DNA of 37,942 nucleotides from Gemmatimonadota bacterium (lineage in GTDB: Bacteria > Gemmatimonadota > Gemmatimonadetes > Longimicrobiales > Gaopeijiaceae): the NCBI GenBank assembly GCA_028873845.1, contig JAPPNO010000111.1, positions 1-37,942 on the forward strand. The letters are read 5' to 3'. The notes under the pieces are model-generated. The model did no database searches. It saw nothing but the letters and a program-made list of their open reading frames with translations, and was not told the origin of the DNA. The position numbers and the translations under genes are program-made. Below are positions 10,496-13,905 of this stretch, one piece after another; position 1 is the first letter of the stretch, and each line of letters opens with the position of its first letter.

Positions 10496-11925
10496 GATCG
10501 AATCGTGACCTCCAGGCGAAGCCATTCGCGTTGCGGCGCCGTACCCGGGCCGGCGGACGGCCGCGCGGACCCCGGTACCCACACGATGGACCCGCCGGCG
10601 TCGGCGACCACCGGCCAGCCTTCGCGGCGGTCCGCCGGAACCCGCGCCTCCAGAAGGATCTTCTTCACCTTTTTCTTCCCGTACGGCAATGTCATCCGGT
10701 CTCCCGGCGCCCAGGGGCGCACGTCGAGCGGAAACCGTACGCTGCCGGGGGCGAAGTGCGCAACGAATCGGGACCCCGGCGCTCCGTCCGCCCTCCAGTC
10801 CACCGCGACGCGGCACGCGCCGTGGGCGAAGGCGCCCCTCCCGCTCGGCGGGTCGACGCGGACTCGGGGGGAAGGGCGGGTCACCGCAGGGGGCCGGGCG
10901 GGCGGGGCCTCCGATTCCGGAGGGGGCGGCCGGGAGGTGCCGGCGGGACCGCCGAAACGGAGCACGCCGAGGTGGTGCTCGACGGTGACGCCGCCCGCCA
11001 GCCCGAGCTTCCGCCCGCTGGGGGCCTCGCGCACGAAGCGCAGCAGCGACGCCGTTGCACCCCGCCCCGGAGAGCCTCCGAGCCGGGTGGCGACGCGGCG
11101 GAGCAGCACGGTGAGGACGGGGTCCGGGAGGGCGGCCAGCGCTTCACGATCGAAGGACGGTTCCAGGGGCGACCGGGACCGCGCGGACGCCGCCGCCGCG
11201 ATGCGGTCGTCGAGGAGCCGGTCCAGGGCGGCCGACTCCAGACGGCTCGCGGCGGCCAGCGCGACGAGCGCGGACGCCGTACCGGGGACCGCGGCCTCGA
11301 GCGCGGGGAGGACCTCGTGGCGGAGCCTGTTGCGCGTCCAGCGAAGGTCCCGGTTCGAGGGGTCCTCGCGGTGGGGGACACCGTGTGCGGCCGCGTACGC
11401 CCCGACCTCCGCGCGCCAGAAGGGAAGCAGCGGGCGCACCGGCGACGGAGACCGGCCCGGGCGAATCGCGCCCAGACCGCGCGGGCCGCTCCCCCGCGCG
11501 ATCCGGAAGAGCACGGTCTCGGCCTGGTCGTCGGCGGTGTGGCCCGTGAGGATTGCCGTGTCCGGTCCGATTCCCGCCGCCACCTCGGCGAGGAAGCCGT
11601 AGCGCAGCTCCCTTCCCTCCGCCTCGGTGCGGACCGGAGCGGGCGCCGCGCGAAGGTGGTACGCAACCCCCCACGCCGCGCACGTCTCGCCGAGCCAGGC
11701 GGCGTCGGCGGCGCTCTCCGGGCGCATCCCGTGGTCGAGGTGGGCGGCGTGGAGCGTGAGCGACGGGGCCGCGCCGCCGAAGCGCAGCAGGTGAAGGAGC
11801 GTCATCGAGTCGATCCCGCCCGAAACGGCCACGACGGCATCCCCGGCGCCGTCCAGGCGACCGGAAGCCCGGAGGTGATCGCGAAAGCGGGCCGCGAGGC
11901 CGGTCTCGCGTCGCGAGCCGCTCAT
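10492..11925 (-). CDS. tilS: tRNA(Ile)-lysidine synthetase
   Basis: Modifies C34 of tRNA-Ile(CAU) to lysidine so that it reads AUA and is charged by IleRS. 477 residues: N-terminal PP-loop ATPase with AVSGGIDSMTLLHLL (SGGIDS at 35-40), the DHGMRPES and LTGHTADDQAETVLFRIARGSG motifs, the middle substrate-binding region, and a C-terminal domain with PWAPGDRMTLPYGKKKVKKILLEARVP (GKKK and a VP ending, as in TilS). The ATG overlaps the stop of the phosphodiesterase gene upstream, and the TGA overlaps the hpt start. Confidence 0.95.
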   Translation of the reverse strand: MSGSRRETGLAARFRDHLRASGRLDGAGDAVVAVSGGIDSMTLLHLLRFGGAAPSLTLHAAHLDHGMRPESAADAAWLGETCAAWGVAYHLRAAPAPVRTEAEGRELRYGFLAEVAAGIGPDTAILTGHTADDQAETVLFRIARGSGPRGLGAIRPGRSPSPVRPLLPFWRAEVGAYAAAHGVPHREDPSNRDLRWTRNRLRHEVLPALEAAVPGTASALVALAAASRLESAALDRLLDDRIAAAASARSRSPLEPSFDREALAALPDPVLTVLLRRVATRLGGSPGRGATASLLRFVREAPSGRKLGLAGGVTVEHHLGVLRFGGPAGTSRPPPPESEAPPARPPAVTRPSPRVRVDPPSGRGAFAHGACRVAVDWRADGAPGSRFVAHFAPGSVRFPLDVRPWAPGDRMTLPYGKKKVKKILLEARVPADRREGWPVVADAGGSIVWVPGSARPSAGPGTAPQREWLRLEVTIRS

Positions 11926-12767
11926 CGTCCCCTGCGTCCTGTCCGGGCCGGAGCCGGAGCGCGTCCCGCCACCTCCTCCAACACGCCGGCCAGCAGATCC
12001 GGCCGGTCGGTCTGGATGCCGTCGACACCCCACTCCAGCAGCCGGCGCATGTCCGCCGGGTCGTCCACCGTCCACACGTGCACGGGGATGTTGGCCCGGT
12101 GCGCGGCCCGCACGAACGCCGGTGTGACGACCCGGTGGCGCCCCGATGTCTCCGGAACCTGGAAGGCGTCCACCGCGGGGACGTACCAGCGCCCGATCAC
12201 GGGCACGCGGTGCAGCAGCCAGAAGGGCAGCACCTGCCGGCGTGACGCCCCCCGGGGACCCCCGTAGCGGCGGGCACCGTCGCGGGTGCGCTCGAACTCG
12301 GCCCCGATCAGGACCCGGTGCTCCGCGTCCCGTGCCCGAATCACCTCCACGAGCGGCCCGGCGGCCTCCGCCGCCTTGGGTTCCACCATGACGCGCATGG
12401 TCGGCAGCTCCTCCAGCACCTCGTCGAAGAGCGGAATCCGCGCGTTCCGGCCGCGGTACGGGAACCCGCCCGCCGAATCGCGGAAGCGGTAGCCGGCATC
12501 GAGCCGCCGGACCTCGTCCCAGGTCATGTCGCGCACGCGCCCGGTGCCGTCGGTGGTGCGGTCGACCGTCTCGTCGTGCAGCACCACGACCCGCCCGTCC
12601 GCGGTCAGCCGCACGTCCATCTCGAGCATGTCGGCATCCCAGTGGTCGACGGCCTGCCGGAACGCGATCATCGTGTTCTCCGGAGCGAGGCCCGCGCCGC
12701 CCCGGTGGGCCGCCAGCACCGGCGCGCCCGCCAGAAACGGATGGCCCGGACGGGGTCGGCCAGGCAT
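11922..12767 (-). CDS. Glycerophosphodiester phosphodiesterase
   Basis: Hydrolyses glycerophosphodiesters to glycerol-3-phosphate and an alcohol (UgpQ/GlpQ family). 281 residues with no signal peptide, so probably cytoplasmic and UgpQ-like. TIM-barrel GDPD motifs: AHRGGAGLAPENT (His21, Arg22, Glu30), EMDVRLTADG (Glu49, Asp51), VLHDETVDRTTDGTG (His64), and the C-terminal HVWTVDDPADMRRLLEWGVDGIQTDRP. The frame is open further upstream, but the ATG at 12767 has a strong GGGAGGA 3 nt before it and directly precedes the conserved domain. Its own upstream region carries the 12-bp tandem repeats at 12893-12936. Such enzymes are often in phosphate-starvation regulons. Confidence 0.92.
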   Translation of the reverse strand: MPGRPRPGHPFLAGAPVLAAHRGGAGLAPENTMIAFRQAVDHWDADMLEMDVRLTADGRVVVLHDETVDRTTDGTGRVRDMTWDEVRRLDAGYRFRDSAGGFPYRGRNARIPLFDEVLEELPTMRVMVEPKAAEAAGPLVEVIRARDAEHRVLIGAEFERTRDGARRYGGPRGASRRQVLPFWLLHRVPVIGRWYVPAVDAFQVPETSGRHRVVTPAFVRAAHRANIPVHVWTVDDPADMRRLLEWGVDGIQTDRPDLLAGVLEEVAGRAPAPARTGRRGR

Positions 12768-12892
12768 GGGTCCTCCCTGGGGTCGGCGCCGACGGTGTCG
12801 CGGTGTCACCGCGTGGAATCGTGGATGGGAAAGGTCGAACCGGGCGTGGGGGCGGGCAAGGGACGAGAGGGTGGAGCGAGCATGGAGGGAGT

Positions 12893-12936
12893 TGTACAGA
12901 TTGATGTACAGAATCTTGTACAGACAGATGTACGGA
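12893..12936. repeat. Four tandem 12-bp repeats with a TGTACAGA core (operator-like)
   Basis: TGTACAGA occurs at 12893, 12905 and 12917 and TGTACGGA at 12929, exactly 12 bp apart, with unrelated 4-nt spacers. On the minus strand the unit reads TCTGTACA. The array lies in the 277-bp divergent region, 126 nt from the phosphodiesterase start and 109 nt from the nfo start. Strict spacing with variable spacers is the pattern of a regulator binding head to tail. The rest of 12768-13044 shows no gene or clear promoter. Confidence 0.75.
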
Positions 12937-13044: not shown

Positions 13045-13905
13045 ATGTCGACCGTTGACGAACTGGGCGCCCACGTGTCGGTGGCCGGCGGCGTCGACCG
13101 CGCGCCGGGCCGCGCGGCCGAAATCGGGGCGGTCGTCCTTCAGATCTTCACCCGGCAGCCGAACCGCTGGGCCGATCCGGTGTTGCGCGAGGACGCGGTC
13201 GCGGGATATCGCGGGGAGGCGGCGCGGCGCGGCGTGACCTGGGCGGCCGCTCACGATTCCTATCTCATCAACCTTTCCAGCCCCGACCCCATCCTCTGGC
13301 GCCGCTCGGCGGACTCCTTTCGCCGCGAGCTGGAACGCGCAGCGCTACTGGATCTGGACGCGGTGGTCACCCACCCCGGCAACGCCACGGACGGTGACCG
13401 CGCGAGCGGGATCGAACGAAACGCCGCGGGAGTCGCGGAGGCGCTGGAGGCGGTGCCGGGCGGCCCGCGGGTCCTGCTGGAGCTGACCGCCGGGGCCGGA
13501 ACCTCGGTCGGAGGGACCTTCGAGGAGCTGGCGCGGATCATTCGGCTGGTCCCCGCCCCGCACCGGGACCGGGTCGGCGTCTGCTTCGACACCTGCCACG
13601 CCTGGGTAGCCGGCCTGGACCTGCGAGGCGACTTCGACGGGGTGTGGATGCGCGCGGACGACACCTTCGGCACGCACCGCATCGAGCTCTTCCACCTCAA
13701 CGACGCCAGGACCCCGTTCGGCTCCCGGCTCGACCGGCACGAGAACATCGGGAAGGGGACGATGGGGATCGAGCCGTTTCGCCTGCTCATGAACTCGGGC
13801 CGGTTCCGCGCGGTGCCCAAGGTGCTGGAGACGCCGAAGGGGGGCGACGGGGTGAGCGCGGACCGCGAGAACCTGACGCTGCTGCGGGGGTTGAGACGGC
13901 CCTGA
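13045..13905 (+). CDS. nfo: Endonuclease IV (AP endonuclease)
   Basis: Cuts 5' of abasic sites in base excision repair. 286 residues, xylose-isomerase-like TIM barrel. All nine zinc ligands of the family can be assigned: His70, His110 (THPGN), Glu146, Asp182 and His185 (FDTCHA), His217 (FHLND), Asp230 and His232 (LDRHENIGKG), Glu262 (LETPK). The usual LLENTAG reads LLELTAG, which keeps the ligand. I chose ATG 13045 because the protein then starts at ELGAHVSVAGG, the usual beginning; the longer frame crosses the repeat array. No good ribosome binding site is visible. Confidence 0.95.
   Translation: MSTVDELGAHVSVAGGVDRAPGRAAEIGAVVLQIFTRQPNRWADPVLREDAVAGYRGEAARRGVTWAAAHDSYLINLSSPDPILWRRSADSFRRELERAALLDLDAVVTHPGNATDGDRASGIERNAAGVAEALEAVPGGPRVLLELTAGAGTSVGGTFEELARIIRLVPAPHRDRVGVCFDTCHAWVAGLDLRGDFDGVWMRADDTFGTHRIELFHLNDARTPFGSRLDRHENIGKGTMGIEPFRLLMNSGRFRAVPKVLETPKGGDGVSADRENLTLLRGLRRP

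Follow-up and report, generated by a model that had tools for sequence, protein, structure and literature searches.

A conserved array of four TGTACA boxes upstream of nfo in a Gemmatimonadota genus, possibly an orphan Phd/YefM-type operator

Four palindromic TGTACA boxes, spaced at exactly 12 bp, lie upstream of the DNA-repair gene nfo in three species of one genus of Longimicrobiales (Gemmatimonadota). Because no antitoxin gene was found at the locus, we read the array as a possible orphan operator of the Phd/YefM type, which would be bound in trans and would regulate nfo and/or the divergent gene; we give this reading a probability of about 0.5. With the layout of a toxin-antitoxin switch and no adjoining toxin-antitoxin pair, the array suggests that an antitoxin may have taken over the control of a repair gene. 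Nothing on antitoxin control of nfo was found in the literature searched.

The array, its conservation and its neighbours

The window is the whole stretch of DNA that was analysed (37,942 nucleotides). Three copies of TGTACAGA (boxes 1 to 3) and one of TGTACGGA (box 4) stand in it in exact 12-bp register at the positions given in Table 1. Allowing up to 3 mismatches, a two-box pattern matched 3 times in the window, compared to 0.01 expected from shuffled windows, and TGTAC-N7-TGTAC-N7-TGTAC occurs in the whole 4.05-Mb genome only at the nfo array and at one more site, inside the pstS coding sequence. The four-box array is not a product of chance, and the box positions confirm the exact spacing reported in the first-pass annotation. 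The array ends about 110 bp before nfo (ATG at 13045), and its start is about 125 bp from the ATG (about 12767) of a GDPD-type phosphodiesterase gene, upstream of which it lies. No match to the sigma-70 consensus was found at the array, although the promoters of this organism may differ from that consensus.

Table 1. Features of the locus, with positions and strand in the window and the basis for each assignment.
Feature	Position	Strand	Basis
Box 1, TGTACA	12893..12898		box sequence and three-species alignment
Box 2, TGTACA	12905..12910		box sequence and three-species alignment
Box 3, TGTACA	12917..12922		box sequence and three-species alignment
Box 4, TGTACG (TGTACA in both orthologues)	12929..12934		three-species alignment
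nfo, endonuclease IV-like AP endonuclease	13045..13905	+	translation, PF01261, orthologues
GDPD-family glycerophosphodiester phosphodiesterase	11922..12767	-	PF03009
Conserved flank, CGTCCCTTGCCC...GGTTCGACCTTTCCC on the reverse strand	12827..12865	-	alignment

The window's genome (G000) was compared with 22 other genomes of the same genus. Four boxes stand at the corresponding place before nfo in two of these, G007 and G021; in the nfo sense the arrays read TGTACAGATTGATGTACAGAATCTTGTACAGACAGATGTACG (G000), TGTACAGAAATGTGTACATAATTATGTACAACATCATGTACA (G007) and TGTACAGGAAGATGTACAGATTTATGTACAATATCATGTACA (G021). The closest relative by nfo (G013, 92%) was left out of the count, as its contig has just 141 bp before the gene. 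The array was not found in the 19 less related members, G003 and G015 among them, where the DNA upstream of nfo was read in all but G011. Across the three species only 1 of 24 box columns varies, vs. 14 of 18 spacer columns (Fisher p = 8e-7; p from 2e-5 to 4e-3 for genome pairs). These counts agree with the earlier proposal that selection acts on the boxes, and the conservation at orthologous genes on which that proposal had been staked is seen at two nfo orthologues. Since the bases that follow each box vary among the orthologous arrays, the conserved unit is, judging from the alignment, the palindrome TGTACA repeated every 12 bp, not the 8-mer TGTACAGA that had been put forward; the trailing GA is local to the window's genome, and an array of such palindromes has no strand. 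In G003 and G015, which keep part of the flank, about 2.5 kb separate GDPD from nfo and the array is missing; the clade of G000, G007 and G021 has therefore probably acquired it.

The only neighbour of the array common to all three species is nfo. Facing it on the other side in G007 and G021 is a divergent gene for an S46 peptidase (PF10459 match for G021), and in G021 and G013 GDPD comes after S46. GDPD adjoins the array in G000 only because the S46 peptidase gene was lost there, which leaves the tie between array and phosphodiesterase suggested in the first-pass annotation unsupported. G007 and G021 share the conserved flank in Table 1 on their S46 side, and G015 and G003 share part of it; the flank has no match to the sigma-70 consensus and is possibly the promoter of the divergent gene. 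As a separate observation, a long AT-rich inverted repeat (AATGTTAGCATGACATTATGTCGTGTCAACATT) lies directly upstream of nfo in G016 and G002, two genomes without the array (L050, L051).

Phd/YefM operators in other genomes and in the genus

The operators of yefM-yoeB and axe-txe contain palindromic TGTACA cores 12 bp apart, centre to centre (PMC7730913; PMC4803016). The array is alike in its cores, in a spacing of exactly 12 bp and in its intergenic position upstream of a gene, but it differs in having four cores where those operators have two, in standing apart from any antitoxin or toxin gene, and in its neighbour, a DNA-repair gene. Its four cores can be read, on sequence, as two adjacent YefM-like pairs. 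Among the features of a Phd/YefM operator, the array lacks the place directly upstream of an antitoxin gene of its own.

We scanned one genome per species (about 85,000 species genomes) for TGTACA-N6-TGTACA-N6-TGTACA, which gave at least 116 loci. Among the matches listed, a profile search found a Phd/YefM gene at 36 of 116, from many phyla; all 36 genes adjoin the array and read away from it, 35 of them within 76 bp. The seed of the profile consisted of antitoxins located beside these arrays, whereas a Pfam tally of the ORFs flanking the matches listed is independent of it: PF02604 was assigned to 32 of 142, the next family to 3, and the MerR and OmpR families were not among the frequent neighbours. 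Three boxes placed directly in front of an antitoxin gene are a frequent arrangement among the matches listed; coding repeats or simple tandem repeats account for many of the remaining loci. In a Roseibium genome (L172:2030-2080) TGTACA repeats at 12 bp stand just upstream of an integrase-like gene, with similar cases in L187 and L131, and such repeats are perhaps arm sites for a recombination protein.

Upstream of 64 Phd/YefM genes of the genus, the spacing of palindromic, near-identical hexamer pairs peaks at 12 bp (14 loci vs. 0.7 expected) and again at 13 bp (10 loci vs. 1.1 expected). The operator cores differ by subfamily: ACTAGT, TAGCTA or TGTACA. An arginine at a position in the first helix is found in all 14 antitoxins with two GTAC cores upstream, in contrast to 5 of the 50 others, most of which have lysine; the p-value of 2e-10 is uncorrected for kinship and overstates independence, because the 14 genes fall in only three subfamilies. 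Arginine with TGTACA cores, vs. lysine with CTAG or AGCT cores (L208-L294), is a possible Phd/YefM specificity code.

The genus's own YefM operators have two boxes at 13-bp spacing. An intact yefM-yoeB pair on contig C17 of G000 has the operator CGTACAACATATGTGTACC, of the form GTACA-N8-TGTAC with cores 13 bp apart, and in G007 too YefM is intact and its GTAC cores are spaced at 13 bp. G000 also encodes a Phd on C93, whose GTAC cores have a spacing of 24 bp, beside a PIN-type-looking toxin, and another on C58 with a RelE/ParE-like partner (both partners named by eye). In G021, a YefM without its N-terminal DNA-binding half is followed by an intact YoeB (L277, G021:C1:1474402-1476530), and the TGTACA boxes of the sole other GTAC-type antitoxin, a C58-type Phd at 3152166, are spaced at 9 bp. 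Reading the upstream DNA of almost every Phd gene in G000, G007 and G021 turned up no 12-bp TGTACA array. Boxes of TGTACA/TGTATA in 9-bp register lie upstream of Phd in L240:1380-1600 (G021) and L243 (G000), unlike the 12-13 bp norm.

Possible control in trans and competing explanations

A hidden antitoxin gene at the locus was rejected: the Phd profile matched neither the window nor the flanks of the G007 and G021 loci at E up to 10, and PF02604 had no match on the contig. Read as an orphan operator of the Phd/YefM type, the array would be bound by an antitoxin from elsewhere in the genome, one with arginine at the first helix and TGTACA cores, either alone or together with its toxin; the candidates in G000 are the yefM-yoeB pair on C17 and the Phd genes on C93 or C58. 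The bound antitoxin would repress nfo and/or the divergently transcribed S46/GDPD unit, and degradation of the antitoxin by stress proteases would release the repression. The fuller version, in which an antitoxin represses both nfo and the divergent gene through the four cores, its breakdown under stress frees toxin and repair enzyme together, and the run in pstS is perhaps a second, intragenic target, is tentative and somewhat doubtful.

An antitoxin with targets beyond its own operon has a precedent in MqsA, which acts at rpoS and csgD (PMC4803016). There too an antitoxin-type operator palindrome stands before genes outside the toxin-antitoxin operon, in that case in E. coli, but MqsA belongs to another antitoxin family and has another site, and control in trans is something we infer for the nfo array. 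The main weakness of the trans model is the lack of a 12-bp TGTACA array at any of the candidate antitoxin genes. Speaking against it as well are G021, with four perfect boxes but only the truncated YefM, the two-box, 13-bp layout of the genus's own YefM operators, the missing sigma-70 match at the array, and the lack of an array in G003, G015 and the more distant genus members. If the large Phd/YefM antitoxin family does control housekeeping repair genes through operators away from its own operons, toxin-antitoxin modules would belong to the wider regulatory network and would not be isolated units. Pairs of palindromic hexamers at 12-13 bp, with a first-helix arginine where the core is TGTACA, also form a signature by which genomes can be searched simply for such outside targets.

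Toxin-antitoxin modules are mobile, and the main rival explanation is that nfo and S46 once had a yefM-yoeB-like module between them, whose loss left a functionless operator behind. This would accord with G003 and G015, where GDPD lies at a similar distance from nfo and the array is missing, so that it probably arrived as an insertion, and with the failure to find an antitoxin with a matching 12-bp operator in G000, G007 or G021. The profile search, however, recovered no antitoxin remnant at the locus, and 23 unchanged columns out of 24 in the boxes, next to spacers that have largely changed, would be unexpected for a dead site. We regard a relic as unlikely, as it leaves the conserved boxes unexplained.

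It is also rather unlikely that another regulator, such as a MerR/CarH-like or OmpR/PhoB-like protein, reads the repeats. PHO boxes, the sites of PhoB, are 11-bp direct repeats of the CTGTCAT type; they share the direct-repeat layout with the array but not its 12-bp period or its TGTACA core, for which they were rejected, and the phosphodiesterase link is accidental. The CarH operator has three or four 11-bp direct repeats of nnnnTnnACAn (PMC9304148), a pattern whose TnnACA is satisfied by TGTACA, so that number and motif both favour this reading, as do the second TGTACA run of the clade, inside the phosphate gene pstS, and the lack of an exactly fitting antitoxin in G021. CarH/LitR sites are nevertheless not defined by a palindrome, as the full TGTACA is here, are tied to carotenoid and light genes, and were rejected on their period of 11 bp. 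Similar arrays among the matches listed, moreover, are often flanked by PF02604 and not by MerR or OmpR families. The first-pass interpretation is supported in part: as it held, a 12-bp period suits neither PHO boxes nor CarH sites. The YefM-YoeB operator, absent from that annotation, matches core and spacing better.

That the array is no DNA site at all is very improbable: the nfo frame is open through it in G000 and G021, as an LYRx coding repeat in an N-terminal extension would require, and any two boxes could pair as RNA hairpins, but in G007 the array is out of that frame (the ground on which the coding repeat was rejected), the stretch between array and nfo ATG is unconserved, and related three-box arrays often sit before antitoxin genes in the manner of DNA operators.

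In a set of 395 Gemmatimonadota genomes, runs of TGTACA at 12 bp are confined to the clade of G000, G007, G021 and G013, at nfo (the first three) and in pstS, where the run is exact in G007, G021 and G013 and has one changed box in G000. The pstS run encodes a variable PstS loop with YxxxYxxxY in these four genomes, which sister species are without (L005:4985-5050, on C121 of G000; L036, L023, L021). It may be a coding coincidence or a second site; as a second array, the C121 run was rejected because it is pstS coding sequence with YxxxYxxxY. G019 and G021 also contain 12-bp arrays of TGTGTAG, which were set aside because they overlap reading frames with a four-residue repeat; the overlapping ORF in G021 is AlbA/Schlafen-like, judged by eye.
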